Origin: Opisthorchis felineus
Lineage: Eukaryota > Platyhelminthes > Trematoda > Opisthorchiida > Opisthorchiidae
Length of the DNA stretch: 64,000 nt
Assembly: GCA_004794785.1 (NCBI GenBank)
Contig: SJOL01005699.1
Span: 216,299-280,298, forward strand
Direction of reading: 5' to 3'
A model generated the notes under the pieces. It did not search any database, had not been told where the DNA came from, and was given only the letters and a program-made list of their open reading frames with translations. Of the stretch, positions 10,241 through 63,941 are shown piece by piece. How positions within the stretch are numbered: position 1 is the first letter of the stretch; every line of letters starts with the position of its first letter. Position numbers and translations under genes: made by a program.

Positions 10241-11955
10241 CAAACCTGGAAATCTGCAGACTTATTTTTGCATAAGTCTGGTACGTACTTACAACTTTAA
10301 TGTACATAGTATTGTGTGACAACATTTTACTGGAGTAACCACAATTTTCCCACCAACAATAAAAAAGCGCATCGGTAAGCCCATAGTTGGATTAATAAAG
10401 CCTAAAGAGGAACAAAGCAAACCAAAGCGAGATACTCATTTTGTATTATCTATAAATCGGATCTTAGGGGCTAATTCACATAGTGTTGGTTTACCCTCTG
10501 GTATCAGGTTACCTTTCAACGAGGTTTTCGCTTAATACCTTACAAATTTTAGGCACAGGGTTAAAATGATTAGCATGAGGAGCAAAACACTTTAGTGATT
10601 TTTTTCTGGAAAGCAATGGCATGGGATCATTTAGGTTTTTGTTGAAGTCAACTGGCTGGTTACAATGATAGCACAGAAAGTTTATCACGTACGCCTCCCT
10701 ATGAAGAGGAGCTAAGGTAAGAAACAGACACTGGAAGCGGAATGGAATACTACAGCCATATTGTTACCACTGGCAGACATAACTAGCCTCACAAACCGAT
10801 GAGTCACCTTCAATAATCAGTTGAAAGTGATAGAAACGTTAGAGAAATAGTAGAATGCTCAAGAATGCTCACTTGGCCTGTGCAGTTAATCAACGCGTTT
10901 GGTGCTACATCCAAGTTTTCTATACTCGGTAGCCAGCCGAATATCTGAAAAAGAAGAATAGTGAATAAGTTTTTCAGCAGCTTTGAGAACAGGACTCAGA
11001 CACCTGACGTACTTTTCATCTCAAGCAATACTGCAAAATACAAATGTTCTTTTGAAGCATCCGCATGCGAATGAAAGTGCACTATACTCATGTTGACCAA
11101 CAAGAAGATGCCATCTTGGACTTGAATTTAGACATAATGATTTTGGTCCATTTTGACGCTTCAAAATAGGCCGCAGAGTTGTTTTCAGATATAAAAACAT
11201 AAAAGCCACTTTACTCAAACAGTAAGGGTGATATTATTGAAGGTTATAACGGCAAGTACACAAACAAAACCAGTGGGTTCTCCACATATCACCTCTCACA
11301 AATTCTTCGGTTCATAGTGTCGCGCGAATTGTTCCAATAAGCCCACACCGATTGTCCTTACTTCACTGAAGCTAGTAAGGAAAACGTACATATGAACTGA
11401 TATCAGTACTATGCGCTCAGTGACCACCGGCAACCAATTGTAGTCTATTCGGCAAAATTGATATATTATCACAAGTACGTTCCCATAATGCTGACTGGGA
11501 TAACACATTTCATTTTTGAAATCCTGAAAAATGACATTGAGGACTAGTGCATCGATAAAAAAAACCGTATTGTCTGGCAAAGGCTAGGAACCAGCAACAC
11601 AAACCCACACCTGTGAAGTTCTACAAAACGGAAGAATGAGAACTGAAAATAAACCATAGGATGGTTTCTACGTCTTTTCACTGGAGCTACCTACCTCTGT
11701 GTTACGAACGTTTCATGAGTCACCGGGATCACCGCCAGTCTAAGTGGTGATGACCGCTGAGGCACAGAACAAACAGCAAACACTCCATCCAGAGTGGCTT
11801 TGCAATCAACATCACATTAGTTTACTGCTTCGTCAATACGTGGGAGTCAAACAACAAGCTGTAAGTCGCAACGAAATGGTTTTTAGGCCTGTGAGTTCCG
11901 AGTGGTCTACGAAGAGGACAAGATTTTACCAACACAGTTGATGCCAGCAACCCTC
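10241..11955. other. No recognisable feature
   Basis: About 1.7 kb, AT-rich. A 94-residue minus ORF (11296-11580) has protein-like composition near its end, but I see no matching family and no clear splice sites. Nothing else is supported. Confidence 0.45.
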
Positions 11956-12830
11956 TCTCTCTTCATCATCATCAAAGCAACATCAGTGTTGACACTGATA
12001 CTTCACTTTTCTCTCCTAAACCCTTCACAAAGGGAACCTACTCCGGCTTTGGATAATACTTGTGGTGAGTTCGTTCACAATGTTTAAGCACATAAGGCAC
12101 ACGGAGCCAAAACGGCCGACCGACTGTAAGGGCACTCTACTGTTGACGACAATCCAACCCTGAAGTATTCCATATGTCCAACAAAGACCGCACCGCGTGA
12201 GGCGAAACTGAACGATATAGTTGGTATTATATGCGACAAAGAGTATGATCATCATCAGCTGTAAAAACCGAACACTTGCCGTACAGTGGTCATTGCTGCC
12301 ACCGTTCCGATAGCCGATGATTTGTGGAGGTGGTATGGATAGCTGCGCATTGGAGGCGGTAGCTCTTATAATTGATGCGTAAATACAGGGGTGTCTGTGG
12401 ACTTTTCACTGGGGAGATCGGGATGGGAGACATGCATTGAAGGCAACAGCTTGGATACCCGAGCACCACTGAGGACGTGTGTGGGTCGAGTTTGACAGTG
12501 TCTCTAACCATTGATGTGTCCCGTCTCGTGGTCCACATCCAGGGAGACGGCAGTGACTAGCGTATCTGAGTCTGATGGTACTGGCTCTCAAACTTCGCTG
12601 CCAAGTCATTGCTTGACCTACCCTGGCACGTTTCCACACCTCGAGAGAGTTTCCAAAAGGGCTCTTCGAGGAAGTTGGTCGACTGCCATAGGGGGCACAC
12701 AACCAAGCCAACGCAACCTATGTAGTGTGATCAGCTCATCAATCGTGGACGAGTTATTTCTTCCGAAAACCATCCGACGTACTTCGACATTACTGATCCG
12801 GTGTTCCTACTAGGCTCGGGCAAAGAGTAT
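11956..12830 (-). mobile_element. RTE-B 3' end, 5'-truncated
   Basis: The minus-strand translation from 12830 shows the RTE C-terminal region: ELITLHRLRWLGC, then GQAMTWQRSL, CRLPGCGPRD, WLETLS and QWCSGIQAVAFNA. The last piece marks a family distinct from RTE-A, whose end is [12 protein letters not shown]. It equals the end of the plus-strand copy at 16.3-18.07 kb. A 3' UTR follows and finishes at 11961-12000 with a GAT-repeat tail and the hairpin tatcagtgt/acactgatg on the element strand. Two frameshifts separate the motifs, so the copy is dead. Confidence 0.85.
12406..12711 (-). pseudogene. RTE-B C-terminal coding fragment
   Basis: This 101-residue frame contains KRARVGQAMTWQRSLRA, CRLPGCGPRDGTHQWLETLS and QWCSGIQAVAFNACLPS, the conserved post-RT segment of RTE proteins. 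It has no catalytic residues. The preceding HRLRWL motif is in another frame at about 12700-12760. Confidence 0.82.
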
Positions 12831-22479: not shown

Positions 22480-23551
22480 GGGAACGAGCATCCCACGAGT
22501 GACCCAATAGTGGTATCTGAGGTCTACAGAGAACACTATGCAGGCCTATATTCAGCCCCATCTTTCTCGGCACATCCAACCTTGTCAAGGCGTAACTACG
22601 AACGGCCTCTAACCGATTTGGTCTTCACGGTGGAGGACGTTCGTCAACTCATGCACAAGATCAACCCGTTCTGCGCGTTGGGGCCCGACGAAGTCCATCA
22701 AAGGATCCTGAAGGGAACGTCGTGCGCACTGGCAAATCATTTCTACCCGGTGTTTCGTCGGTAGCTTGACGAAGGCCACCTTCCCTCTGCTTGGAAGGAA
22801 GCGATTGTCATACCAATCTACAAAACTGGTGACCGACTATCGCCTGGCAGCTACAGGCCATAAGCCTCACCAGCGTGCCATGCAAGGTGATGGAAAGCAT
22901 TCTGAAGCGAGCCATCCTAGACCACCTTAGATTCAACAACTTTATATCTCCAGTTCAACACGGATTTCTCCCAAACCGTTCTTGCGTGACGAACATGCTC
23001 GTCTTTATGGAGAGCATTACCCAATCCAAAGATGAGGGACTCATATCAGATGCCACATTTTTGACTACTCAAAAGCACTCGATCGAGTCTCACACGTCCC
23101 GCTGCTCCACAAACTCGAGTCTTACGGGGTTCAAGGGGAAATCCTACTCTGGGTCAAGGCGTTCCTATCAGACAGAACATTCCGTGTGAAAGTAGGCCCG
23201 ACCTACACTTCTCCAGCGCCGGTCTCCATTGGAGTTCCTTATGGCTCCGTTCTGGGACCACTGCCGTTTCCGATATACGTTGCCCTTCCAGACGTTCTTT
23301 CAAGTCCATGTCTCCTTTTTGCGGACGACTTGAAATCCTGGAGTTCCAATGCCAGTGCCCTCAAAATGGATGTAGGCGCTGAAAAGCGGTGGTCGTTGGA
23401 CTGGCACCTTCCCCTGAATGACGAAAAGTGCATCCATATGTCATTTGGAGGAGACTCAGCGAATGCCTATGTCGTGCATGGTGAGAATGGACCAGAATAC
23501 ATCACGAAGATAGATGCCAAAAAGGATTTGGTTACCTGGCTCTCTTGAAAC
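22480..23551 (+). pseudogene. CR1 reverse transcriptase domain
   Basis: RT motifs in order across four frame segments: VVSEVYREHYAGLY; VEDVRQLMHKIN..CALGPDEVH; LPSAWKEAIVIPIYKTGDR; PVQHGFLPNRSCVTNML; motif A FDYSKALDRVSH (catalytic Asp present); GVPYGSVLGPLPFPIYV; and motif C LLFADDLKSW. FADD is intact. Compared with the second copy, two residues before the FADD region are missing (IYVALPDV against IYVSDLPAV), a small private deletion. Stops occur at about 22762, 22861 and 23546. Confidence 0.9.
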
Positions 23552-24110
<559 letters not shown>

Positions 24111-24252
24111 AGCACACTGCCCGGCGCTGAGAACTTGCAGAGCAGTGCTACACCTTTTTTTCGCTAATGACTTTCAGGTGAACTACAGCCGCTGAACGAC
24201 GAGAACAAAACCGACCCGGGAAACTTGGGCAAATGGCTCGATCCTGTGCAGT

Positions 24253-24268
24253 AATCCGTGAATCCGTG
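24253..24268 (+). repeat. CR1 terminal octamer repeat, copy 1
   Basis: Two perfect direct repeats of aatccgtg, after which homology with the 32-kb copy ends. CR1 elements characteristically end in short tandem octamers used in priming reverse transcription. Confidence 0.75.
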
Positions 24269-26730
24269 AAAATGTTTGTCGTCATTCACCAAAGGTTGTT
24301 TTCGTATAACAGGTCACCGGAGCAAGGAATACCCGTGACTTGTTTCCGGGCCGCTGTCGTCAAATGTAGTTGGCCTTCCGAAACGATTTATTCCGGGGAA
24401 TGGGTGGTCAGTGTGCAATTGTTCCAATGCCGAAAAGCCACGAACGTTATTAAGCAGTCGGTCGTCATGGGATGGTGCTACTGCGCTGAAACTCAATGTC
24501 CATAATGGATAGCCTGTCGTCAGAGGTCGCGGATAATTGGTCTCAACCCAGGTGGCGGACTCAGCACATAGAACACGGCTTCTATGAGCCTCGTGGCTTG
24601 CCGACTTGCCTGCTTGACCGCTGGTCTCCAGGAACTCACTCATCCAATCAACTGCTTCGATATTGAAAACTGCCCGTTGGATGTTGGGAAACTTTAGCCT
24701 TCAGGAGGGTCAGATTACTGAAAATAAACCCAGAATGCTGAAACCTACTGAGACTCTCAAACTCCACCAAAATCTCAATAAGGAGGCCGACTAGCATCCA
24801 GGCCAGTAAATAAATCAGCCAATTCAGCAAAACCCGACGAGTCTTCAGGCAAGCCACAGAAGCACGACCGACTATGATGAGTGTTGAGGTATTCCACAGA
24901 AGACCGTCGATCATGATGGGTGTTCTCTAACCGCCTGGATCAATGTCCAATTTGCTCCTTAAATAGCGCGAGGCTTCTTGTAAATTTTGCACTCTCTTGC
25001 TCACAATACAGCTGTCGCTTACCTTGTTGGCGAGTCTTTTCCCAGCACTAAGACAGAGCAGGGACAGCAGCAGATACAACAGTATTCTGCTCTCTTAGGT
25101 GAGTATCGATATCAAGCAGTTTTCCAAAAGAACTTGTCCAAGGGGCGCAGATCGTATGAGTTACCGACATTCGGGTCTTCTATCCAATTGAAAGATTACT
25201 ATGAGTACAGTTTATGTTCTGAAGGCATCATGTTTTTCCATCATCGTACAAATTATCAGAGTTTGAAAAGTGTTTTATCATGGTGATTGCTCCGAATAAC
25301 GCTACTCACAGTCCGAGGTCATAGGCTTCTGCATCTGTATACTGAGGCGGTGGATACAAGATACAAATATATATACAGGAGAGCCCATCCCGCATAATTA
25401 GTCATCGAGTGCATTGTATGTTACGGCAGCTTCCATAAATTATTGTTGCTACGGAACTGCTTACATCATTGTTCCATTTTGGTCAAACTCTTACTCCCCG
25501 GCAAGTTGAGAAACTAGCCCACCATCAGATACACACCCGAAATTCCTCTGAAATCAAAGTTTGGAAAAAGCAAGCCTTCATATAAGTTCTAATATTTGAC
25601 GGTGTTTATTGGGAAGCATAAAATATCCCCTCACAGTCACAGTTTTGTAAGAATATGTTCAGACACGCTGAAGCTCCACTCCGGGCATGGAACTCATTTT
25701 TTTCGCCGTCTTGGCCTGGCGGCCGCTCAGTATTCGCACAATGGAATCGAATTCTCTTAAGCTACGGTGTTTTCGTGGTTTTTACTTAGTAGTGAAGAAT
25801 GTCTGTGGATAATAAATTGTTATGCAAATTATCTGCATGGTAATTCGGTTAAGTAAGCCAACCTTCGAGGTCACCAATCACCACCGATTGTGAAAACGTT
25901 GCTAATGTAAAAAGGTATTGAAATTGGGGTAAAACTTAAATAACTTACAAGAGACTAAATTTGCAGATAGTTCTGCGGCTGAAATAGTTCATTGAGCTTT
26001 TTAGAAAATACATGGACTTTGTGGATTCAGAATATGCAGTGCCTCTCCTGTAAATAATGTTTGCTAATTATATCTGCCTGACTGGTCGAACACCGAATTG
26101 TGTGTTCAGGTGCCTCGAGAATTGTTATTCCGAGCTTTCATCGCGAAAGGCGCATTCGTTATTGTTGGGTAAATCGCTCGGGTCCCAAGAACGTAAGGCT
26201 TGTAGCTGGTAATGACTTATGCAAGTTTGGTTGTAAAAAGCAGAGCTCTCCATTGCAACCGGCAACGCCATTTTCAACGGCTGATTCGCATTGCGTGATT
26301 TCTTGCACCTCGATTCCTACTGACTATAACCCACTAGAAGCGTGATATGTACATAGAATGCATGAGGTTTCATCAACAGACGAACAATCTGGAGCTGATG
26401 GCCCTTGTATGAGTCACACAAAACCATGGTCATCTCCTTCCTCTAGCTTGCAACCTACAGCGTTAGTCCTAGTATTGAGACGTTAACCCAAGACTGTCGG
26501 TTAGCTCGATCTTGGAGCCGAAAATCGGACACACGTGAGCTTCCGGGACATACCGTTCTGGGATTCTGTTCTTCGGTTCTTGTCAACATCATTAGAAGCC
26601 TTCTTTGCGGACCGGTTGGCAAGCGTACTTGTGCGCTTTCTGGACGGGCCGCGGGCGATGCACCAAAATAGGTTGATCATCTTCATCACCCTTGGAAGAG
26701 GCCTGAAGAACACCACCGCACAGCCGCTAA
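24269..26730. other. No recognisable gene
   Basis: About 2.5 kb. A 109-residue minus ORF (24314-24643) and an 88-residue minus ORF with hydrophobic segments (24648-24914) are open but resemble nothing I know and have no splice context. The remainder is AT-rich and featureless to my eye. Confidence 0.4.
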
Positions 26731-28320: not shown

Positions 28321-30425
28321 ACCAAGGGCATATCATCTGGCACGGCGAAAACCAAATGTCCATCACCCACTCAACACAGATGGTCAACAATTCCGGCAGC
28401 ATTTGCATGTCCTGAGTGGTAAGGACCTGGCCGAATTCATCGGCTGCAAACTGCCCTCACTTCACACGATGGTCTCATACCTCAGCAGAGCCCCGCACGT
28501 GCCCAACTCCTCTTCGGTTAGCCGTCAATTTACCGGGAGCCGATCGTACAAAAACTCGAAAACCTTATGTTTTTGTCTGAGATAATAAGAAGTGCCCGAA
28601 AGATGGTGTCTCTGCCTCCTTAGACCGAAAACGCACTGAACAGCCAATGCTTTACCTACTGTTTGTCAATAACAAATGCGCTCAGCTTACCAGGATTTTT
28701 GATTTCTTGACTTTCTGTTGGTTTTGCTGGCCATTTGCTGCATTTGTGGTATACCCACTCGTAACGCAAAATAGCGTTAGCCCTTTGATTACTGACTACA
28801 CGCACAAACACTACATAGTTATCCGTCAAGTAGTCCTTTAACGCCTTATCAAATGCCGTGAGGGATGAAAAGCAGGCAGCTCACCATTTCTCAAAAAACA
28901 TAACTGAGGCCAGTTCAGAGCCTATCCTTAGACACACCCCAAAATTCTTGGAAACAATAGTCCAATCGAAGATAAATTCAACGTAAATTTTAGCACTTGG
29001 GGGTATTTATTTGAAACCCCAAAATCTATCCTTGCCGTTGCAGTTTTCTCAAACGTTGTTTAAACCTACTCAAAGTACATTATGAACGCGGAATTTATAT
29101 GTTAATGGCTGCCAATAACTTAGAATGATGTCTCTGTGGTGAGGTGAGAGACTTCGTGGAAAAGTTTGTTTCTGCACGTGTTATATTCTGTATTGGGTTT
29201 GAAAATTTTCTCAAGACCACATAGCCATAATTACACCCTCTTCTTCCGCACAAACTTAAAGTGGCACGGTCAATCGCGACCAGCACAGGAAAGGTTTTCC
29301 ATCGTTTTAACAGGCGTCACGCTGGACAAAGCCAAGGAATTCGTCACAGCTTTTAAGTATTTTGCATTTTTTCATGATGGTCAGCACACGTTTTTTCGGG
29401 TGCACGGCAATAGTTTAGCTTCGCCGTCATGCTGGCTCTTTATGGTGCTGCTGGGAGAATTAATAGGTTTACAGGCAGAACTGGCAAGCAATTCAATAAG
29501 TTGGAAAATTCTTCCAGGCTCTGGCACAAATTCAACAGATTGGAGCGTACTTGTGGGTCCATGTAACACGCTTGGTCCGAAAATAATAGGGATATGTTGA
29601 ACTGCGGGAAAACCATCAGACTATGTGTGGCGGTACCGTCATCGCGACGTCGTACTTGGGTCCTTGGACAGCCCTGTAGATCAACGTCCGAGCTGAGTCA
29701 TATGGGTTTGTCATGGTAGTAAGTATTGGCCAACGAATCGTGACAAATTAAGACTAGCATGGATCAAGGATATTCTTGGGTCGATCCACGGCATGGCGTG
29801 GTTCGTTGCAGCCAATTGAACGAGGCAATGATACAGCCATGTCTACCGTGGGGACTGGAAGCAAGAAAGTTGTCGAAAAGGTCTTCTATAAGGCACTACA
29901 GTATGAGTTAGACTGCGGACCGAAATAGCGGGCAGCTACGACTGGTCACGTTCCCTAAATACTGCAGTGAATTGACCCTGCCCGAATTCAAAAGCTGTAA
30001 TTGATATTCGGGTGAAGAGGATCGGTTAGCAGCAGATGCGAGCGGTTGTTAGCGTATGTGAATGTGAGGGGCGTGCATCAGCTAAAGTCTGCTAAACTAA
30101 GGTAGCTCGGAGCGTGAAGGGTCAAGAGATCGGATAAAACGTGGAAAGTCTGGTAGGGTTGCGTTTTTGAACGATGAGGTGACCTCAGATTGGCGCAGTT
30201 CCAGGCTGAATAAAAGCGGGGGGGGGGGCTTTGCAATCCAGTTGTTTCGGAGGCGTCATACAGCGTGAATTAAGTGAGTCACTGCTACCATTTTTTGCTC
30301 TAATATTCATTGGGCTTTTGATTTATAGGAGGATTGCCCAGTATAAATGCTACGACCAGGGCAAACTCAGGCCAGTGGCACGGCGTTCGACTAGAGTTGC
30401 TTCCATTTTAGTTTTCTCGTCCCTC
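28321..30425. other. No recognisable gene
   Basis: About 2.1 kb. The 144-residue plus ORF at 29166-29600 has no recognisable domain. A run of nine or more G at about 30219-30228 precedes the RTE relic. The 29.9-30.2 kb part is GC-richer and could be decayed leader sequence of that relic. Confidence 0.4.
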
Positions 30426-30479
30426 CATTGCTTTCATATACAATGCAATATCCGTCAGAAGTGCTCACCCTCTTATTTT

Positions 30480-31031
30480 TTATTTAGTTTCATCGTCGAT
30501 GAGATAATGAAACACACGCTGGGTGGTTTTCGAAACCCTGGTTCTCCAATAGTCTCCGACAAAAACCTTCTGAATCTGGAATATTCAAATAATGTTGCTC
30601 TCGTCTTCAAGGGGGGGGATAAGGCGCAGTTGTTTTTGCATGAACCTATCAAAGTCATCACGTCCTTTGGAATGCAGTATGCACCCACAAAGTATAAAGC
30701 CATGCTCCTTGGCATGCAGTTACTGAACACGCTACCTGCAATCCGGGGAGAGGCTCTCGAAGTTGTGAAGCGTTTTACATACCTTGAAATTTGTATTAGT
30801 TCTGATCGTAGTGCAAGGAACTGCAGGGCTCGGGTCGCATTTACTAGTTTGCTACACCTACGGTGTCAAAGAGGTATTTCCCTGAATCTCAAGGAGCGTG
30901 CTTATGGGGGTGCAGTACAGGCTGTTTTGTTGCATGGCTCAGACTTGGTCTATCTGAGCAGCGTAACTGAGACGTCTTCAGGTGTTCATCAATTGTTGTC
31001 TCAGAACCATAGCTCGTGTAACATGTTGTGA
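30480..31031 (+). pseudogene. RTE-A reverse transcriptase palm-thumb with mutated motif C
   Basis: The frame covers the part of RT after motif A: FLFSFIVDEIMKHTLGGFR, then LNLEYSNNVALVFKGGD in place of the family's LEYADD.ALVFE. Both catalytic aspartates of YADD are Asn here. The thumb follows, and the frame stops after SSCNML, where the C-terminal frame 30982-31356 takes over with an overlap of about 50 bases. Confidence 0.85.
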
Positions 31032-31356: not shown

Positions 31357-31784
31357 TGTAAGTCAGTGGCGTTCGTGTCGTCATTTTCTATCCAGCCTGC
31401 CTGAATGAGCGTGTGGAGATGCAGGCGCCTCGGAACAGCACTAAATCCTTCCCCTGTCCACCTTTATTCTTTTCTTCACGATAACGATTTCATATAACTC
31501 ATGGTCGTACGGCAGCGAAGCATCAGCGTTGAACACGTATATCGTGCTGTCCATGATGATGATGATAGGGCCGATTAGTGTCTGAAAAGGCCGATCAAGT
31601 TTGACGTATGTGGTTATGCATGCAAGGCGCACCGAGGTGATGGAATATTGGGAGTCAGGACCCATTAACTACTTGGGATAAACGCGGGCTTAGTGGCACC
31701 GTGGCAATTTATTTTACTTGGATGTGAGTTGAAGGATACTTGTTCCCGGGCAGTGAGCCATAGAAAACCTTTCATTCCTTGCTA

Positions 31785-31825
31785 GATCATCATCATTATC
31801 AGAGACCGATCGCATCAGATGCGGT
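31785..31825 (-). repeat. Decayed RTE 3' tail
   Basis: Plus strand atcatcatcattatcagaga followed by ccgatcgcatcagat aligns with the tail at 48327-48370 (atcatcatcaccatcagaga, cagcagcatcagtg). It is probably the remnant of a very short minus-strand RTE insertion. No target duplication was identified. Confidence 0.5.
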
Positions 31826-31985: not shown

Positions 31986-32264
31986 ATCTACGTCAGCGAC
32001 CTTCCAGCTGTTCCTTCAAGTCCATGTCTCCTTTTTGCGGACGACTTGAAATCCTGGAGTTCCAATGCCAGTGCCCTCAAAATGGATGTAGGCGCTGAAA
32101 AGCGGTGGTCGTTGGACTGGCACCTTCCCCTGAATGACGAAAAGTGCATCCATATGTCATTTGGAGGAGACTCAGCGAATGCCTATGTCGTGCATGGTGA
32201 GAATGGACCAGAATACATCACGAAGATAGATGCCAAAAAGGATTTGGTTACCTGGCTCTCTTGA
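31986..32264 (+). pseudogene. CR1 reverse transcriptase palm fragment, copy 2
   Basis: This frame carries motif C (LLFADDLKSWSS) and downstream WHLPLNDEKCIHMSFGGDS, identical in sequence to copy 1, ending at the same TGA after DLVTWLS. The open frame extends upstream to 31854, but residues before about 31978 are unrelated flanking DNA. Confidence 0.85.
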
Positions 32265-32267
32265 AAC

Positions 32268-32830
<563 letters not shown>

Positions 32831-32968
32831 CACTGCCCGGCGCTGAGAACTTGCAGAGCAGTGCTACACCTTTTTTTCGCTAATGACTTTCAGGTGAACT
32901 ACAGCCGCTGAACGACGAGAACAAAACCGATCCGGGAAACTTGGGCAAATGGCTCGATCCTGTGCAGT

Positions 32969-32984
32969 AATCCGTGAATCCGTG
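32969..32984 (+). repeat. CR1 terminal octamer repeat, copy 2
   Basis: Two perfect aatccgtg repeats mark the 3' end. Flanking sequence differs completely from copy 1 from 32985 on. Confidence 0.75.
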
Positions 32985-35930
32985 TAACTGCATGCTTTGT
33001 TTCGCGCCTTGACAATTTATAGTTGCTGGTACGCCCGCATCTACAAATACCGCCCGTTAAGTCCTGAAATATGATAATGTTTACTCCCGACTAGTGGGTA
33101 GCATACCATCAGGCGTGATGATAAATTTGCAGTCAGAATACGTGCTTGACTGGTAGGGTTTGTGGGTACCGGGAATTTCGTGAAAAATGGACGGCGACAT
33201 AAACATTGGGCATTACCCGAATTAGACTTGGTCACGCCGAAGGCGGCATGGGTAGGGATCCGAACTTGGAAATATATCAGATGGCGCAAGATACTATCAT
33301 TAAGCTTTGAAAGTGGCGGGAAAAAACAACACGAGGGAGGGCATAGCAAGAGGCTTCCTGCCTGGTACGTGATAAAAATAATTTTTTTAAAACTTCGATC
33401 TGCAGAATAAGTGGAACCAGAATAACGGATCAGGAGAGGCAGCAGATCTGCCACGATCTGACCCGCCGATTTGAACTGAAGCCTAAAACCGTTACTGAGG
33501 CTTCGTAGCCTTGGGCTGTTGGGCGTATGGCCAGAGTCACGAAAAGCGTAATTGGGTAATATGCTGTACGGATAAATGGTTGCAGGAAACCCAGAATCAC
33601 AGTGTGCAGTGAAACTGGAGAGACTCACTAGTGTTGCTGCTGGAGCGAGGTCGGGTGTAAAAGGTTCCTTGGGAGAAGGAGTTCACGCAAGCGCACAAGA
33701 AGGAACGCGAACTGCACGGAAAATAACTGACTTTATGAGGAGTACAAAGTAAAAGACACGAGATGTTTAGATCCAATGGAAGGCTCAGCAGATTGGAATG
33801 AACGCCTCCCGGGGGCGGCTGGGACCAGATGAAGATTTTTGTGTGGTTGTAGGTAAGGGGACAAGTGGGCGAGAGGGCGAAGTCAAAGTAGGGAGTGAGC
33901 AGTTGCAGGCATGCTATCACACTGGGTATGGCAGTGCCACCACTACACTGAGATACTTCAGTTTCTGGGCAGCCCCGTGACGGACATCGTGATTGAGGTA
34001 GTTGGGCTGGGATGTGCAGTCCTGTAAGCAGTGGGATGTGGGTTTGCCCAGGGATTTCGTAGGGAGAGCAAGACCAGTGTAATGTCGTAGGTGGTATTTG
34101 ATTTTTTTGTCCGGTCGGGGATCCCTTCAGGTGTAATGCACTGATCGGGTGGAGAGGATAACGGCCAAACAGGGCGTCCATGGCACGTATTACCGCAGGC
34201 CGAAGCTTGGGAAGATGAGATGGGTGAGATCAATAAGGCCTAGAGAGTTGTAGGAGTCATCAGACAGGAAGTAGTCCTTTAAGAAAAAAACGGAACTTCT
34301 GCTACAGTTAGGTTGCTGACGACAAGTGGTTAAACGAGAGGGGGTAAGGATGGATCCGCACTCAGTAGCCTCATCGTCAAAGCCAAGCTTAGATTTCCGC
34401 TATATGCAATTATACTAGCTGAGACATAGGACGGTACGATGTAAATAGGGAAAGAGTTGGCGTGGTAAGGGAAAACAAACACTTTCGGACTGGCGTGGGT
34501 GGAACTTCTTAGTAGGTGGACTAGATTTCAAGGAGGTTAATAGTGAGTTGGACAATGCTGGGACAATTTAGGATAGAAGGTCAACGCAAGGGGAATGATC
34601 ACCAGTCCCCGAAGCACTACTATCAGCTTCAGTCTAAAAGTGTAGCACGGCGAAAAAAACTTTCGACGCTAGCCTCTCAAGCTGGTAGTGGAGGGTTTGG
34701 AGTCTCTGTATATTTATATTGTATGTGTCCACTCTTTAGAGCAGCTGGTAGGTGTGTATTTTGTTTGGTTGACGAGGTGGGTTTTGGCGCGGTGTAGTTT
34801 CGGTTCTGACGAAAGCAGCTACAGCTATGCACGTCGATGTAGGCCATGGGCATTGTAGAGTATTGTCAGGCTATCCCAGGTATATTGTTTTTTTATTATT
34901 TTGACAGACAGAAGGCCTTTTTTTCTCATCTGTGGTTTATGGCGTTGCCAGATAATTAACTCACTCGAGGCGAGTCCAACACCAGCAGCATCAAACAGAA
35001 AGCAGCAGTGCTCTTTTTTAGTTTCCTGAATTCAAAAGCCCGGCTCAGAACAACCGGCGATGGTCGATGCACCCGTGCTGCTGGATGGGTGGCGGGTATA
35101 CGAACGCATAATGCTGCAACATAACAGGGCAACCTTTCTTGCAGGGCGTACCCGTCCACCACACGAGATTTTCATCCCTCGTGCATGTTACCAGATCTGC
35201 AAGGTGGAAAACCATCCAGTCAGTCATAAATGCGGTTTGTGCATTAACGAAATACTCCAGCCACCAATTTTTTTCCGGTCAAGGGGAAAACAAAGCCAGT
35301 AAAAACAGCTCAGTCAATTCGAACAAGCAAACAGTAAACAGACGCTGGTAAATGCAAGTCGCGGAGGAGGTAAGTAAAATGACAGTTGCCACTGAGACAG
35401 TGGGAATGGAATGGTGATCTACAGATTGCGTGCACTATGGCTAAACAGTGACTGAGCGTTGGTGTGAGCTGCCATGTCAAGTAGAAGGTTACCGTGATGT
35501 TACGTGTGTGAGTGTTTTGTGAGCTGTGGAGCAAATCCTCAAATGGCTATGAGATATATATATCGGCGTATAGTAATGAAGAAAAAAGCTGACTTTGGTT
35601 TTTGTCAGTTACAGTTAGACCAAGAGCACGGATCACTAGATTGAGCTGATAGAATAATCCGGGTTAGGGACCTGACTAGAACGAGGGATAAGTTGGCTGG
35701 GAAGAAAAGAAGAAAACAACCAGGCCAGTAACACCGCATATTTAGACCAAGTAAGCGTTTAAGTCCTAAGGTGGCTTGAAGCAAGTCAAGAGGTTAGGAA
35801 GATATGATAACAGGAACTTTTACTTGCCCAATACCTCTAGCGTCGCTGAACTCAAATGCGCACTTGACCAGATTCACAGAGGAGGTCGGGGGGCAGTTGG
35901 GTATTGAGTAAGGTGGCAGCAGTTTCACAG
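32985..35930 (-). other. Unexplained GT-rich stretch with long minus-strand ORFs
   Basis: About 3 kb between the CR1 copy and the ORF2 end of the minus-strand LINE. Minus ORFs of 195 (33041-33628) and 194 residues (33597-34181) overlap by about 30 bases, with a 91-residue frame at 33958-34233 upstream. Their translations are Pro/Ser/Leu-rich with no recognised domain. Composition (purine- and GT-rich on the plus strand) resembles the neighbouring LINE, so this may be an unusually long 3' UTR, a second decayed element in the same orientation, or part of ORF1 of another copy. I cannot decide. Confidence 0.4.
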
Positions 35931-48326: not shown

Positions 48327-48870
48327 TCATCATCATCACCATCAGAGACAGCAGCATCAGTGTTGAGACTGATGCCTCACTACCATACAGTCGCAGTTTA
48401 TTTAATGGTATTTAAGGTCAAAGTGAAAAGAAAGTGAGGAGGGGACGGACCTGATGCTAGCCTATCATAAGCATTCGGAGGTGCATACACTTCCAGGTGC
48501 TCATTTAGATAATCTGGGAAGAAACTGCCAGAACGTATGTCACTGACATCGATTGCCTTCCGTTTCTCGCAATGTTTCCAGCCAAGAAGAATGGAGTCAC
48601 AGGGAGCTCATCCCGGAAGGCGGATCCCACCAACAATACCCAAACCCCTCGTCATATTTCTCACACCCTTATTCCAAGTCATACGTTGTTGACCTCGCAG
48701 TTCGTGCCATTCTCAAAGAAATATGGAGAATAACACTCCTCTCGGTAGACGATGCTTTCGCGTGCGTAGCACATGACCGACCCGCTGTTGTCGATGTTGT
48801 CGGATGTTTTCCTCGACCAAGGTACCTGCTGCAGTCGCGGTAAACATCCAGCGAAAAGGAGCAGAAGCGA
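48327..48870 (-). mobile_element. Nested RTE 3' fragment (about 544 bp)
   Basis: Inserted in opposite orientation into the RTE-A host between FADD and NELTKAIPS. The minus translation reads RQHRQQRVGHVLRTRKHRLP, RGVLFSIF, RMTWNKGV, then KAIDVSDIRSGSFFPDYLNE as the counterpart of the [12 protein letters not shown] end. A 3' UTR follows, then the hairpin (catcagt/actgatg stem at 48355-48374) and a GAT-type tail at 48327-48345. It is 5'-truncated. I could not identify a clean target-site duplication, so the right edge (about 48870) is set by where host coding resumes. Confidence 0.85.
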
Positions 48871-49003
48871 ATTGATAAATGGATGAACTGACCAAAGCCA
48901 TCCCGTCCTCTGGCTTGTGCTTTGCATTCAGTGGGTGTAATGTTATAGTCCTGAACATTACGTCACTAAGTACGCCACTTACAATCCAAGGACAGGCACT
49001 AGA

Positions 49004-49069
49004 TCATCATCGTCATCATGGACAGCACGACATCAGTGTTCAACACTGATGCTTCGCTGCCGTACAAAG
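49004..49069 (-). mobile_element. 66-bp micro-insertion of an RTE 3' tail
   Basis: Only the terminal part of an RTE: on the minus strand it starts ctttgtacggcagcgaagc, has the full hairpin catcagtgtt...aacactgatg (49031-49051) and ends in a GAT-rich tail. It is flanked by the 9-bp direct repeat ggcactaga (48995-49003 and 49070-49078). Removing the insert and one repeat restores the host sequence QALE-VVE, which matches the 30.4-kb copy. This is a clean retrotransposition event of minimal length. Confidence 0.88.
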
Positions 49070-49131
49070 GGCACTAGAAGTTGTGGAGTGTTCTTTATAC
49101 CTTGGATTTTGTAATAGTCTCGATTTTAGTG

Positions 49132-49322
49132 TGGGGCGAGATGGCCGAAGTGGTTAGAGCGCGAATTTACTGACCGCAAGGTTCGTGGTTCGAACCCGAC
49201 CTCTGCCTCTCGACTTCCCCTGTCTAGGCTTGGGCAACCTGGCAGTATCCCAGCCCTCGTGCTTCCTTCTGGTAGCATGGCAGTTAGGCACCGAAAGGGT
49301 GCTACAGCTGAACGATTTTTTA
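49132..49322 (+). mobile_element. tRNA-derived SINE, full-length copy
   Basis: About 190 bp. The 5' part is tRNA-like with an A box (tggccgaagtggtta, 49143-49157) and a B box (ggttcgaaccc, 49187-49197). A unique body follows (cctgtctaggcttgggcaac, later caccgaaagggtgctacagc) and it ends in tgaacgattttttat, a T-run that also suits Pol III termination. It is inserted in the RTE-A host between its CISS-type segment and LNLKGRV. Other copies are at 59435-59556 and 61301-61471. No exact target duplication was seen, and about 80 bp of host may be deleted. Confidence 0.85.
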
Positions 49323-49790
49323 TTTATGCCTTGGAATCTCAAGGGACGTGTGTGTCAGGCAACAGTGCGGGCTGCTTTTTATGGCTGAGACGTGGCTTCT
49401 GCGAGCAGTAGAACTGAGACGCCTTCGGGCCTTCGATAACCGTTGTCTCAGAACCATGGCCAACCTTAATCTGGCGGAAGGGTATTAAAGCGACTGCAAA
49501 ACTTCTGTGTGTTGTCGGTGCGACTCGCCTTCCAGGACGGGGCCGTGTGTGTCTGGTTAGATACACTGCAAGATATGGCTGCCAATCGATATCAATGGCG
49601 TTCTTGTTGTCAGTTTCTATCCAGATTGCATGAATGAGTGTCTGGAGGTTTAGACAATGGAATAATTGTGGTGAACTAGCACTAAGTCCCTTCCCCATCC
49701 ACGTTCATTTTTTCACAATAAGGCTTTAACGTAAAGTATGGTTGTACGACGATGAAGCACGCTAGTGTGCTGTCGATAGTGATTTTGAAG
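49323..49790 (+). pseudogene. RTE-A C-terminus and 3' UTR of the nested host
   Basis: Resumes PWNLKGRVCQATVRAAFYG, continues through decayed C-terminal coding to the box [25 protein letters not shown] equivalent at 49588-49625, then a UTR. The tail (tatggttgtacgacgatgaa, gtgtgctgtcgatagtga) is at 49735-49790, with the hairpin decayed. Confidence 0.75.
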
Positions 49791-49819: not shown

Positions 49820-50778
49820 GCCCTGTGCAGCTGATGACATGTTCTAGTGGATTTCTCTACAATATTCCAGCTGCCTTGTACAAAACTAGGTGTAAGTTCC
49901 ACAACCACTGTCTGCCTGAGCCTATCTGGGAGAGTGACCTTCCTAGGCACCCGGGGTGGGTCGATATCAGCATCCCCTTTAAAATGGGCATTCGCAGTGA
50001 AGTTAATAACCAGAAAGGAGTCAGTCTGACCCCCGTTGTAACAAGGCTTCTGGCATCACTATAATAAATATAAATCAAGAATCAGAGGTCGGGTTCGAAT
50101 CACGGGCCTTCCGGCCAGTAAATTCGTGCTCTAGCCACTGAGTCATCTCCCCCCCCAAAAAAAACAACAATGGATCGCTTCACGATTTTGCGTGTCATCC
50201 TTGACATCCCTACTTATGGATCTTTCGGCGGCACGCATGATTATATCCCGTGAGCATCGAGCAGGATTCCAACCGGTTATAAGCTGCTTCAATAACATCT
50301 CCACATTGTATCAGATGTTATAATAGTGATGTATTTACAGAGACCCACAGTCTTAGTGTTGTTGTACTCTAAGTTTGCGCTCGATGCTGTCTACCGGCCT
50401 GTGCTTTCAACGGCGCTTGCCCAACAACAGATGCCTCAGAAATTCTTGAACATAATCCGATCGTTACGTTCCATCACTTCAGAGTGACAGAGCTTATGAG
50501 GAGCTTTATAAAACCTTTCCTACACAAAAGGGTATCCGGCATGAATATCCACTCTCGTACCACCCATTCGTGCTGCCAGTTTCTTTCTGGATTGTTTGAT
50601 TGCGCATTTGAAGGTGTAGATAAATCAGAGTGGTTGCATAAGCTGCCGCCAGGTCCCTCCCCCACTCTTGTCTTTTTTGGTTTAAGTTTTCGATGCTGTT
50701 AAATAAGCCTTATGACTGTGTGACAGTGGAGCATCATTGTTAACACTGATGTTGCTGTCTCTGGTACTGATGGTGATG
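49820..50778 (+). mobile_element. Second plus-strand RTE relic, internally deleted
   Basis: Follows directly after the previous copy. It reads RT fingers (CLPEPIWESDLPRHPGWVDI, IPFKMG, NNQKGVSLTPVVTRLLASL) to 50062. It is interrupted by a tRNA-like insertion (50082-50157) and resumes at about 50205 with ISREHRAGFQPV and at 50345 with RPTVLVLLYSKFALDAVYRP and LAQQQMPQKFLNIIRSL. It then jumps to the C-terminal box HSCCQFLSGLFD at 50570-50605. The 3' UTR ends with the hairpin (catcattgtt/aacactgatg, 50732-50752) and a degenerate GAT tail ending near 50778. Confidence 0.82.
50082..50157 (-). repeat. tRNA-like insertion (SINE head only)
   Basis: On the minus strand: an A box (tgactcagtggctagagcac) and, after gaatttactggccgg, a B box (gtgattcgaacccgacc). 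It resembles the SINE head at 49132 but lacks the SINE body. It splits the RTE reading at VVTRLLASL. A run of C and A borders it on the right. It is not a functional tRNA gene: no anticodon arm can be folded with confidence. Confidence 0.7.
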
Positions 50779-51170
50779 ACCGTTGACTGTGGATTCCGAC
50801 AGGTTCGGCTAGTCTGACTTCAGGCAGCCGCTTATTCACAGGAGTCCAGTCAAGCGGAGCTTTATCGACTCTTATGCTCAGCGCAACATCCACACCACTG
50901 ACACCACATCGTACTATGTCTGGATCACCTAATAGGAGAAAGAACCATCAACGACCTGAGCTCTTTTGGGTGGTTTTCAGATGCCTTACCGTAGTAAGGT
51001 ATTGTAAGCGTGATTTAGAGACACTTCAATTTTAAGGGAGAAAGAAGTCTGTCGACTTATTGGGCAAAGAGGACGGATAGTAAATGCTGCTGCGTTTACG
51101 ACATTCCTTGATTTTAGTAGCGCATGGCTAGCTTTTCTGGGTGGACCGCTGGGAATGGATATTGATTTCA
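50775..51170 (-). pseudogene. RTE endonuclease relic, minus strand
   Basis: Two frames of an RTE endonuclease. At about 51030-51120 is KSRNVVNAAAFTIRPLCPI, the decayed 'AAFNVRTL' start. At 50775-50893 is VDVALSIRVDKAPLDWTPVN then RLPEVRLAEPVGIHS, matching 'VGIVLSDRAEASLLDWIPVDSRLCAVRLA' of copy 1. It abuts the 3' tail of the plus-strand element at 50778, which probably inserted into it. Confidence 0.78.
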
Positions 51171-57412: not shown

Positions 57413-58709
57413 TCCATTCACTCTGGCTCCGTGACATTTTGTTTGCGATTGACATCTTTCGAGAGACCACCCCACACTCTCAACAAGGACCACTCTATTT
57501 GTCCCGAAGAAGCAGCTTCCAACAAAGCTCAGGGTGCGAAGTGCATGTTGTAGGTTTTCCAACACTGGCACGAAGTAAGCAGATGACTACCTGCCATATG
57601 CAGCTTCGTTTCCAGTGTGATGGAGGTCTTCAACAACGTGAAGCTTAAACACTCCAGTAACCCCTCGAAAGTAGACCCTCCCAAAGAGAGCTTGGTGGCC
57701 TGAAAATGCCGAAAATAGATGGCAAAATTAATCACGATTAAGTAGCTAAGTTAATGCGCATTCTGGTAGGTTACTGGGATATGGAAGCATTATAATGTAG
57801 AGACCAACCAAAAGTTGAACCTGTAATGGGAAACAATAAAATCGAACTTCAGCCAGGTAGCATGGAAATTTCTGAATTCTTGTGTGGTCCATTAGTTCTC
57901 AAACGTTTCACCTCATCAGGCCTTAGCGCGCAGTGTATGACAACATCGCTTATCCTGTATGTAATGCTTGAACAGCGTACTAGAGTTTGTTGCAAGACGT
58001 ATTAATTAGGGGTGTAGGCTGTTGTACATGTGAGACCCCTCCGAATGGGGGTCACTCTTCCGATAAATCTTCCCGGATGGTGTGTTCTATTGTAGGATCC
58101 CATTGAAAACAAGAATGCAAAATGTGTACATAGGATTTTTGCCTGTTGGATATCTGGACCGTAGTATTGGGGGGCAAAATTGTCCCTCCTATGTGGTCGG
58201 AGGTCTCGTGAAATCTTGTGGCACATAGCTGACAATCCCCCCATCCATGAAGACAACCCTTCAGATAAAATCACCTGGGATTAGTCTCGTGCGTATTTCG
58301 AATGGCTGCGCGTTTCCCTAAAGAGTCTAAGTGTCGAAAAATATAATTTTTGGCAAGTCCCTGCGGCTAGTCTCAGTTTTATCTGGCGTCGGATGATGTG
58401 TCAAGTTGGGTTGTTGTGACCAGAAGGTATCTATCTTCGGGTCTCCAACAAAGCAATGGCCCCCCTCAGAAATCCAATGCTTTAAGAAGCTAGCTGGAAT
58501 GTACCGTAGGTGGAACTCCCCGGCATCAGTGTATATCCTGCCCCAGTGATTTTTAATCTCTGGTATTGGATCAGCAGTCAGGCGTTGGATAACTAGCTTC
58601 TGATTATTTGATTTCGGTACTCATAAGCCTGTCAGTAGTCGAGCAGTTTGTGCGTAGACCTCAAAAGTTCAATGAAAGGCAGCAATGGACAGATCCGTGG
58701 TTGGAGCCT

Positions 58710-58779
58710 CATCATCATCATCATCATCATCGACAGCATGACATCAGTGTTCAACACCGATGCTTCACTGCCGTACAAC
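58710..58779 (-). mobile_element. 70-bp micro-insertion of an RTE 3' tail
   Basis: Minus-strand content: starts gttgtacggcagtgaagc, hairpin catcggtgtt...aacactgatg (58742-58762 on the plus strand; one G.U pair in RNA), then seven GAT-type repeats. It is flanked by the 11-bp direct repeat ggttggagcct (58699-58709 and 58780-58790). Deleting the insert and one repeat restores collinearity with copy 1 around 1105-1135. It is therefore a genuine target-primed insertion of almost nothing but the tail. Confidence 0.9.
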
Positions 58780-59434
58780 GGTTGGAGCCTACACAGTTAT
58801 TCCGGAGGAAACGGTAGGCAGTGATCGACCATCGCCACCGGTGACTGGTGGAGACGTGGTATGTTTGTCTCGAATTTGGTCGGTTGGCCCAACATAGTCA
58901 GACGAGTTCCGCTGTTCCGGAATTCGGTACTGCAAAGGTATAGTGCATGATCAGCACGCATCTGCAGTAGTCACTTTCTGTTTCCCGTGCGTCTAGTGTT
59001 AAATTGAAAACGACTACCCATTGAGCCTCAGTAACGATAAACCTACCTATCTACGTGTTAATGTTACCAGTGGTCACAACGATTTCTGGGCTTTTAACCG
59101 GTTGTAAAAGAACACGTAGATATTCATAGAAAATGTATTTGACAGATTCAGAGCCATAGGGCGTCGGGACGTGAACGGGTACAAGAAACACGGACCGATG
59201 GATAGCTCTTTCTCGAGGTTATTTGACAAACGTTGACAAACGAGTCGCAAGAGGGTGATTACCATCGGCTCACTTGTCATCTAGAGACCCCGCTTACTGC
59301 TTCAGCACAATTCCCACTCCAGTCTGCCTGGTCGCAGCTGGGTCCTTGTCACCAGAGGTACGCAGCCAAAAACCGGAGGAGAGTGAGGACGCAGTCAGTT
59401 CAATTACGGTACTTGTGTCCTAGATTCTGGTTTG

Positions 59435-59556
59435 CGATCGACATCTCGACTTTCCCTGTCTAGGCTTGGGCAACCCGTCAGTATCTCAGCCCTCGTGCTT
59501 CCTTCGGGTGGCATGGCAGCTAGGCACCGGAAGGGTGCTACAGCTGAACGTTTTTT
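59435..59556 (+). mobile_element. tRNA-derived SINE, 5'-truncated copy
   Basis: The SINE body only: ccctgtctaggcttgggcaa, ggcaccggaagggtgctaca, ending gctgaacg plus a T run. It is flanked by ttctggtttg (59425-59434) and ttcttgtttg (59557-59566), a 10-bp target duplication with one mismatch. The insertion lies in the minus-strand RTE-A endonuclease relic. Confidence 0.82.
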
Positions 59557-59710
59557 TTCTTGTTTGTTACAGGCAACATGCATCAATGCAGAAAGAATCC
59601 AGTGTGCAAACATGAGCCGCTTGTTGTCTTGCTTTCTTCAGTGTGCGAACATCAAGAACGTCTAAGTAATCCGGCTTTGGGAGTTTGGAAATCGATTTTG
59701 GGCTGTTACC

Positions 59711-61300: not shown

Positions 61301-61471
61301 GGCCTCGAGATTGCTCAGTGGTTAAGGCGCCATGGACCGGAAGCCGACCTCAGCATCCCGACTGTTCCTGTCTAGGCCTGGGCAACCTGGCAGTATCCTA
61401 GCCTTCGTACCTCCTTCCGTTGGCATGACAGCTAGGCACCGAAAGGGTGCTACAGCTGAACGATTTTTTTT
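61301..61471 (+). mobile_element. tRNA-derived SINE with deleted B box
   Basis: Starts ggcctcgagattgctcagtg (A box region, attgctcagtggtta). The segment that holds the B box in the 49.1-kb copy is missing. The body is complete (cctgtctaggcctgggcaac, caccgaaagggtgctacagc) and it ends tgaacgattttttt. About 170 bp against 190 in the full copy. No clear target duplication. Confidence 0.82.
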
Positions 61472-62445: not shown

Positions 62446-62973
62446 TTGGTACTGAGCTTACCCCCCCTGCTACCTCCAATCCAGGATCCTGGCCTTCAAC
62501 AGAAAGGCGGACCTTCAGCCTCGGAAGTGTCCGAGTGTATTTCTCTACTCAAGCGTCATCGTGTTGCTAGTCCTGACGACCTTCCACCTGCTCTTTTCAA
62601 GGATGGCGGTGGACTTCTCAGCCGGTGCCTGTCTAGCCTGTTTGGGTCTATCTGGGAGAAAGAGACCGTCCCAGACAACTGGGTTGAATCGATAGTAGTG
62701 TCCATTTTCAAAAAGGGTACTCGCAGTGAATGTAGTAACCACAGAGGTATTAGTTTGACTCCTGTTGTGACAAGGCTTCTGGTGTCACTGATTCTTCGTC
62801 GTCTTACGGTGGCACGCGAAACCTTGACTCGTGAGATCCAAGCGGGATTTCGACCGGGTAGAGGCTGCGTTGACCACATCTTCACACTTCGTCAGGTGTT
62901 AGAGCAACGCCACATGTACAGACGACCCACAATCTTGGTATTCCTTGACTTCAAGGGTGCGTTCGATTCTGTC
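62446..62973 (+). pseudogene. RTE-A reverse transcriptase, N-terminal half
   Basis: Frame with ASEVSECISLLKRHRVASPD, DLPPALFKDGGG, IWEKETVPDNWVESIVVSIF, KKGTRSECSNHRGISLTPVV, TRLLVSLILRRLTVARETLT, REIQAGFRPGRGCVDHIFTL and RQVLEQ, up to motif A. It has no stop, unlike copy 1. The first 30 residues are frame-shifted relative to copy 1, so the element's own start is not here. Motif C lies inside the gap. Confidence 0.9.
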
Positions 62974-63941
62974 NNNNNNNNNNNNNNNNNNNNNNNNNNN
63001 NNNNNNNNNNNNNNNNNNNNNNNNNNNNNNNNNNNNNNNNNNNNNNNNNNNNNNNNNNNNNNNNNNNNNNNNNNNNNNNNNNNNNNNNNNNNNNNNNNNN
63101 NNNNNNNNNNNNNNNNNNNNNNNNNNNNNNNNNNNNNNNNNNNNNNNNNNNNNNNNNNNNNNNNNNNNNNNNNNNNNNNNNNNNNNNNNNNNNNNNNNNN
63201 NNNNNNNNNNNNNNNNNNNNNNNNNNNNNNNNNNNNNNNNNNNNNNNNNNNNNNNNNNNNNNNNNNNNNNNNNNNNNNNNNNNNNNNNNNNNNNNNNNNN
63301 NNNNNNNNNNNNNNNNNNNNNNNNNNNNNNNNNNNNNNNNNNNNNNNNNNNNNNNNNNNNNNNNNNNNNNNNNNNNNNNNNNNNNNNNNNNNNNNNNNNN
63401 NNNNNNNNNNNNNNNNNNNNNNNNNNNNNNNNNNNNNNNNNNNNNNNNNNNNNNNNNNNNNNNNNNNNNNNNNNNNNNNNNNNNNNNNNNNNNNNNNNNN
63501 NNNNNNNNNNNNNNNNNNNNNNNNNNNNNNNNNNNNNNNNNNNNNNNNNNNNNNNNNNNNNNNNNNNNNNNNNNNNNNNNNNNNNNNNNNNNNNNNNNNN
63601 NNNNNNNNNNNNNNNNNNNNNNNNNNNNNNNNNNNNNNNNNNNNNNNNNNNNNNNNNNNNNNNNNNNNNNNNNNNNNNNNNNNNNNNNNNNNNNNNNNNN
63701 NNNNNNNNNNNNNNNNNNNNNNNNNNNNNNNNNNNNNNNNNNNNNNNNNNNNNNNNNNNNNNNNNNNNNNNNNNNNNNNNNNNNNNNNNNNNNNNNNNNN
63801 NNNNNNNNNNNNNNNNNNNNNNNNNNNNNNNNNNNNNNNNNNNNNNNNNNNNNNNNNNNNNNNNNNNNNNNNNNNNNNNNNNNNNNNNNNNNNNNNNNNN
63901 NNNNNNNNNNNNNNNNNNNNNNNNNNNNNNNNNNNNNNNNN
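62974..63941. other. Assembly gap (968 N)
   Basis: A run of 968 undetermined bases inside the RTE-A copy. In the 30.4- and 47.6-kb copies the distance from motif A to the QWRSCC box is of the same order. Confidence 0.99.

Follow-up and report, generated by a model that had tools for sequence, protein, structure and literature searches.

Very short copies of an RTE-like retrotransposon in Opisthorchis felineus begin at the foot of its 3′ hairpin

Why should two insertions of only 66 and 70 bp begin at the same internal point of the element from which they derive? The question is raised by a stretch of 64,000 nt of the Opisthorchis felineus genome (contig SJOL01005699.1, hereafter the window), in which an initial annotation had pointed to two micro-insertions sharing an internal start and ending in GAT. 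Truncation of the copies of long interspersed nuclear elements (LINEs) is usually viewed as scattered along the element. Two options had been put forward, namely a discrete unit of 65 bp or a reverse transcriptase (RT) that stops at a fixed structure. Both micro-insertions are confirmed as real, with the shared start and the GAT end; in both the element lies on the minus strand, comprises nothing of an RTE-like LINE but its 3′ hairpin and GAT tail, and is flanked by a target duplication. The features are, with positions counted in the window:

49004 to 49069, minus strand: micro-insertion 1, RTE 3′ hairpin and GAT tail, 66 bp, from sequence comparison and an insertion-free relative
49021 to 49061, minus strand: hairpin of micro-insertion 1, lower stem GGCAGC/GCTGTC, upper stem CATCAGTG/CACTGATG, from folding
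48995 to 49003, plus strand: target duplication of micro-insertion 1, copy one, ggcactaga, from the sequence
49070 to 49078, plus strand: target duplication of micro-insertion 1, copy two, from the sequence
58710 to 58779, minus strand: micro-insertion 2, the same unit of hairpin and GAT tail, 70 bp, with a longer GAT tail than micro-insertion 1
58732 to 58772, minus strand: hairpin of micro-insertion 2
58699 to 58709, plus strand: target duplication of micro-insertion 2, copy one, ggttggagcct, from the sequence
58780 to 58790, plus strand: target duplication of micro-insertion 2, copy two, from the sequence

On the element strand micro-insertion 1 reads CT-TTGTACGGCAG...(GAT)n, with two extra bases ahead of TTGTAC, and micro-insertion 2 reads G-TTGTACGGCAG...(GAT)n, with one base ahead of TTGTACGGCAG; the two are 92% identical across 64 positions. 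Their target duplications, GGCACTAGA (9 bp) and GGTTGGAGCCT (11 bp), are both perfect. Once joined, the flanks of micro-insertion 1 align to a diverged, insertion-free RTE coding remnant at about 30657-30813, and those of micro-insertion 2 to a diverged, insertion-free relative inside 900-1400; in both alignments the sole interruption at the junction is a gap roughly as long as one target duplication. The host site of micro-insertion 1 is a remnant of an RT frame (48879-49133). At up to three mismatches the hairpin core was matched twice in the window, compared to no match in 100 shuffles.

Longer copies of the same 3′ end extend upstream into a 3′ untranslated region (3′UTR) and an RT frame, and it is this shared 3′ end, together with target duplications of variable length, that identifies the micro copies as 5′-truncated copies of an RTE-like LINE. 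The name RTE is taken over from the initial annotation and from the short 3′UTR and trinucleotide tail, which we assume to be features of this group. Two of the sampled loci (numbered with an L throughout), L063 and L067, carry a frame with an RVT_1 domain (E 1.1e-35 for the L063 fragment), and these frames, of 455 residues each, show zero nucleotide differences, which suggests recent activity or a recent duplication. Among the 120 best of 903 protein matches to the L063 frame, the best reaches 98%, while Opisthorchis viverrini proteins match at 90% over 71% of the query and at 74% over the whole query. In the window itself, an RTE-like copy runs off the window start (2520-1, minus strand) and presents, in this order, a presumed 5′UTR (2520-2167), an endonuclease-like frame (2085-1357), whose endonuclease match is weak and below the cut-off (E 0.0061), and an RT stretch (246-1) that is 90% identical to the L063 frame. 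A protein search using window 30210-31031 and a comparison to phage records gave nothing informative, and viral contigs gave 0 matches.

The genome (630 Mb, 1,848 contigs) was sampled in two ways. A search with the 70-bp unit returned 691 candidates, of which 40 were scored and the flanks of all 40 examined. LINE homology was lost at the unit start in eleven of these (L001, which is micro-insertion 1 itself, L020, L026, L028, L030-L034, L037 and L038), three started up to about 30 nt upstream (L006, L023, L024) and 26 continued; after reclassing L037, a join to a presumed 5′UTR, and L032, which has a tRNA-like head, nine of the 40 are plain micro copies. The second query was a 25-nt core within the hairpin, which is neutral about the upstream sequence. 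It was found at 4,554 places (2,275 + 2,279) at up to two mismatches, and at 0 with the reversed control. The first 100 exact core matches in genome order were taken as second sample, representing 99 loci, one of them with two matches (L094 is the same place as L039 of the first sample). Positions are numbered with +1 as the first T of TTGTAC, so that the stem starts at +7; ends located 3′ of +23 are invisible in this sample, since the core begins there.

Automatic 5′ extension placed 39 of the 100 core matches at 0 to +23. By eye, L069 among these is one of the longer copies, from which a short piece has been deleted, and L042, L059 and L123 are 5′UTR joins; the whole sample divides into 35 micro copies, two copies with a re-copied hairpin arm (L099, L100), three presumed-5′UTR joins and 60 longer copies. 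The micro copies lack upstream LINE sequence, and 31 of them start at 0 to +9, i.e., within 10 nt at the hairpin foot: 5, 3, 3, 6 and 7 copies at 0, +1, +2, +3 and +4, and 2, 2, 2 and 1 at +6, +7, +8 and +9. The modal start is +3/+4 (13 copies), and the remaining four start at +12, +13, +15 and +23. Leaving out L044, the inserts of the other 34 micro copies measure 52-73 bp, with a median of 61 bp. The background is given by 62 copies (the 60 longer ones plus L099 and L100), in which 49 truncation points are scattered 13-1,436 nt from the boundary and 13 copies reach the end of the fetched stretch; N runs limit several copies, e.g., L041 and L131. The density of 5′ ends is therefore about 0.05 per nt elsewhere versus 3.1 per nt at 0 to +9, and the chance of finding 31 ends there is about 3e-44 (expectation 0.5), or about 2e-23 at five times the background. 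The histogram of 5′ ends suggested with the initial annotation, run here on a sample, accordingly shows a sharp peak, comprising 31 of the 100 matches. The truncation hot spot at the hairpin foot is an observation, unlike its mechanism, which is a matter of interpretation.

Target duplications were called at a direct-repeat score of at least 7, with one mismatch allowed and tail bases sometimes included. This score was reached in 20 of the 39 copies tested versus 3.9% of 1,523 shuffled pairs; all 20 are micro copies, and their duplications are 7-14 bp long. In L132b the listed repeat is tail sequence, yet CTTATGT is readable on either side. L132 has two core matches 71 bp apart, a micro copy being inserted directly after the GAT tail of a longer copy. 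The starts defined by duplications were read by eye, ranges indicating bases common to target and element: +2 with one extra base (L051); +3 (L060); +4 (L056, L081, L119); +4 with two extra bases (L048); +4 to +5 (L125); +4 to +6 (L055); +6 to +8 (L057); +7 (L107, and L078 with one extra base); +8 to +12 (L109, L122); +9 to +13 (L136); and +15 to +17 (L050). Several junctions show microhomology of one to four bases, while others carry one or two extra bases. A MITE (miniature inverted-repeat transposable element) or another DNA transposon, which would have target duplications of fixed length next to inverted repeats, is ruled out, as those found here are of variable length and are located beyond the GAT tail.

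The hot spot is not confined to one type of hairpin. A pattern for a second subfamily with a shorter hairpin, at up to two mismatches, was found at 1,931 places (977 + 954), with a control of 0. Among the first 40 exact matches listed, eight are without upstream LINE sequence and start at 0, +4, +4, +6, +8, +8, +13 and +21; L175 starts at -8, and L162, L164 and L167, for which the program gave starts of +10 to +22, prove when read by eye to be longer copies deleted at the hairpin. In a further, small sample not chosen by an exact core (flanks of other loci plus the window), 9 of 16 were micro-like by eye, including the three of the window. L163 and L173 have lost the same part of the hairpin arm, flanked by GCA repeats, perhaps through slippage. 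The second subfamily bears on the proposal that polyadenylation cleavage at an AATAAA just upstream of the boundary frees the hairpin piece. AAATAAATCATGG or a close variant does lie ahead of the boundary in most longer copies of the first subfamily, although merely 6 nt from it, but in the longer copies of the second subfamily AATAAA is absent just upstream of the boundary and micro copies arise anyway, by which the proposal is largely refuted and can hardly be believed.

One start region common to 35 of 100 sampled copies, 20 of which have target duplications, would also be expected of a separate family, about 65 bp long and non-autonomous, that has a source transcript of its own. This was the reading favoured in the initial annotation, and a lower divergence of the micro copies at +13 to +22 (see below) might fit it too. 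We nevertheless consider such a family improbable. The starts vary within about 10 nt, the second subfamily shows an identical boundary, and a 61-bp unit would be too small for an internal promoter. Variants at +12, +21 and +48 are common to micro and longer copies (Fisher p 0.26, 0.62 and 0.67, respectively), and a single-source micro family was rejected on the lack of private variants at these three sites; neither private variants nor one exact 5′ end, which would mark a discrete repeat family, were found. The upstream flanks of micro copies mostly differ from one another, which speaks against one source unit as well, with the exception of the 5′UTR joins, insertions into shared repeats (e.g., L091, L120) and a 53-bp match between L087 and L119 located about 60-110 nt upstream. 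Neither do the micro copies qualify as short interspersed nuclear elements (SINEs), as they comprise hairpin and tail only, without RNA polymerase III promoter or small-RNA-derived head; searches of the window with Rfam (gathering cut-off) and ARAGORN gave no hit. With regard to the two options named at the outset, an RT stop at a fixed structure fits better than a discrete unit of 65 bp.

We are inclined to believe, with some reserve, that the micro-insertions are extremely 5′-truncated copies of the RTE-like LINE, produced by recurrent target-primed insertions in which RT disengages after the 3′ hairpin. Priming would start in the GAT tail, RT would then copy through the 3′ hairpin and would release the template a few nt from its 5′ foot (35 of 100 copies in the first subfamily, 8 of 40 in the second), after which the end of the complementary DNA (cDNA) would be joined to the target, via microhomology or with extra bases. 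Sometimes RT would re-engage, on the hairpin arm, on the LINE's own 5′UTR or, once, on a tRNA-like RNA. Two candidate causes of the stop can be conceived: the protein may keep hold of the hairpin and be unable to advance, or the finished cDNA hairpin may fold back behind the active site.

The typed 84-nt LINE end folds at -32.4 kcal/mol (z -4.2 compared to shuffles), and across 12 hairpins the pair cells are standard in 90%, versus 20-59% with slid partners. By analogy with stringent-type LINEs, the hairpin would be the structure recognized by RT. When the start is regressed on tail length, the slope is 0.25, and 0.13 within 0 to +9; the start thus shifts little with tail length, indicating that the boundary is set by the hairpin structure more than by a fixed product length, which is rejected as sole cause.

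Other rearrangements at the hairpin foot were observed. In L099 and L100 the hairpin 5′ arm has been copied twice. By eye, L042, L059, L123 and L037 consist of a body, which measures about 430 nt in L042 and L059, joined to the LINE end at +3 to +5. The same body is present at window 2520-2167 (minus strand), where an endonuclease-like frame and, after it, an RT frame follow on this strand, and in L120, L091, L071 and L058 it continues into other sequence. Pieced together from separate copies, the body is most likely the LINE's own 5′UTR, and the interpretation of these four loci as a SINE with a borrowed tail was dropped after this comparison. The whole units of L042 and L059 are flanked by duplications, TGTCTGCTGCC and TGTATCAAGCTGTC respectively (by eye), and in a tree of the 5′UTR the four bodies are not monophyletic, though support is weak. 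In L136:334, L069 and L111, internal deletions read by eye end at about +2 to +9. Finally, L032 holds a tRNA-like stretch (638-701; 20 bits with a cut-off of 29, E 0.41) six bases before the hairpin unit, and is possibly a newborn tRNA-LINE chimera, of which no second copy was present among the loci sampled up to then. By eye, an imperfect repeat (9/11) appears to surround the whole of this unit. Taken together, the re-copied arms, the 5′UTR joins and the one tRNA-like fusion suggest template switching at the hairpin foot.

The re-copied arms, like the joins to other templates, agree with an RT that released its template and then re-engaged. We infer that the stop occurs during reverse transcription rather than on RNA that had already been cut. 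The main rival holds the opposite: LINE RNA would be degraded from its 5′ end down to the hairpin, perhaps protected by bound RT, and the remaining 60-nt stub with its tail would be inserted. The commonest ends, 3-4 nt ahead of the stem (+7), lie where an exonuclease blocked by the hairpin could stop, and the extra bases read by eye at several junctions (L048, L051, L078, L089 and copy 1 of the window) fit run-off at a template end. A pre-trimmed template does not account for ends inside the stem, from +8 to +15 (L109, L122, L136, L050, L047, L130), and requires an extra RNA jump wherever LINE sequence resumes past the foot (L136:334, L069, L111 and the presumed 5′UTR joins); we rate it as a serious but rather unlikely explanation. 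The clustering of ends on either side of the stem foot and the microhomology at several junctions would equally agree with a longer cDNA that folds into the hairpin and is cut at the foot by a structure-specific nuclease of the host before second-strand synthesis. A mode located 3-4 nt beyond the stem speaks against such cutting, from which neither re-copied arms nor a fusion to a tRNA would be expected, and we hold it to be very improbable.

A broader reading, which we advance tentatively as a possibility and not as the expected outcome, sees the 3′ hairpin as an escape barrier: RT, still bound to it, would often release once the hairpin has been copied, and one event would give rise to micro-insertions, re-copied arms, mini-elements joining 5′UTR and hairpin, and tRNA-hairpin chimeras.

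Several points weigh against an RT that disengages after the hairpin. A template hairpin would be expected to impede RT on approach or during its copying rather than once copying is complete, so that a special cause is required, and RNA trimmed beforehand to the hairpin would yield nearly identical ends. Covariation in the 12 hairpins was no higher than in shuffles. The rank correlation between start and tail length is 0.38 (p 0.03), or 0.32 (p 0.07) without L044. Fifteen of the 35 micro copies lack a target duplication at or above the threshold, and the share of micro copies is lower in the second subfamily (8/40 compared to 35/100), a difference that is not significant (p 0.11). Only two of eleven internal deletions in 86 longer copies break at the foot (with the place of L039/L094 counted twice). 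Lastly, micro copies are less diverged at +13 to +22 (0.26 vs 0.60 mismatches), which a younger, separate source could also produce.

Further copies of the element, and one rejected candidate, are located in the window:

31504 to 31566, plus strand: comparison copy, hairpin region and tail ending a longer RTE copy, with 3′UTR and coding remnant upstream
11955 to 12007, minus strand: copy of the second subfamily, with its start in the hairpin foot at about +9, clear target duplication absent
48327 to 48391, minus strand: second-subfamily hairpin ending a longer copy
50714 to 50780, plus strand: second-subfamily hairpin ending a longer copy
31785 to 31825, minus strand: third candidate of the initial annotation, unconfirmed, at best the end of a second-subfamily tail

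This last stretch had been proposed as a decayed third micro-insertion. Without its tail, the best match is 9 nt, which 30 of 500 random window pieces equal or exceed in the case of the second subfamily, and against the first subfamily 82 of 500 random window pieces match equally well; the copy at 11955-12007 is the better third case. Besides these, a short repeat has copies at 49124-49330, 59444-59557 and 61340-61469, the first of which is tRNA-like by eye, without ARAGORN or Rfam hit, and is nested in the RTE remnant that also hosts micro-insertion 1. Two direct repeats of 991 bp (23284-24274 and 32000-32990; 99.3% identical), whose starts are separated by about 8.7 kb, may represent the long terminal repeats (LTRs) of a young LTR retrotransposon, and a run of N at about 62950-63940 falls within an RT frame.

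Related systems have been described, and are compared here as far as the accessible portions of the publications go. In Lepidoptera, 5′-truncated RTE copies found microsatellite families (Tay et al. 2010, PMC2887409). As in the fluke, an RTE 3′ end is followed by a simple-repeat tail, with flanking target duplications of 6-12 bp in that case; unlike here, the pieces reach back into the end of the RT coding sequence, and a fixed truncation point at a hairpin does not appear in the portions at hand. In the stringent-type LINEs UnaL2 and ZfL2, the RT protein binds the 3′ stem-loop (Hayashi et al. 2014, PMC4176376), which is likewise followed by short repeats. The hairpin reported here is stable and may be bound by RT in the same way; stops at the stem-loop are not dealt with in what could be consulted of PMC4176376. 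Short internally deleted elements (SIDEs) are derivatives of CR1 LINEs for which template jumps by RT were suggested (Wang et al. 2019, PMC6740152). L042 and L059, and perhaps L123 and L037, similarly appear to keep the 5′ region and 3′ end of the LINE with the middle lost but, unlike in SIDEs, their 3′ breakpoint is the hairpin foot, which is also the truncation hot spot. Tailless retropseudogenes have truncation hot spots tied to RNA structure (Noll et al. 2015, PMC5322556), and thus share preferred, structure-linked truncation points with our copies, although in the fluke a LINE copy is truncated at its 5′ end and the point is a stem foot. Chimeras formed by template switching have been reported for L2 and RTE elements, and switching was proposed for the LINE tails of short elements (PMC4476161), while target duplications are known from reptile Bov-B elements (PMC13295347). 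Among titles and the first parts of abstracts, most subscription papers being out of reach, no LINE truncation hot spot at a 3′ hairpin foot was encountered, and the accessible portions of PMC2887409, PMC4176376, PMC4476161, PMC6740152, PMC5322556, PMC13295347, PMC5135761 and PMC6530080 do not describe a fixed stop at this position.

A fixed and heavily used stop represents a genomic record of RT leaving its template, readable in thousands of hairpin copies. Insertions of about 61 bp may be missed by repeat annotation because they are so short. The hot spot may furthermore explain short elements that bear exactly the hairpin and tail of a LINE and, if the hairpin is indeed an escape barrier, the hot spot that makes 60-bp insertions would also give SINEs and internally deleted elements their LINE tails.
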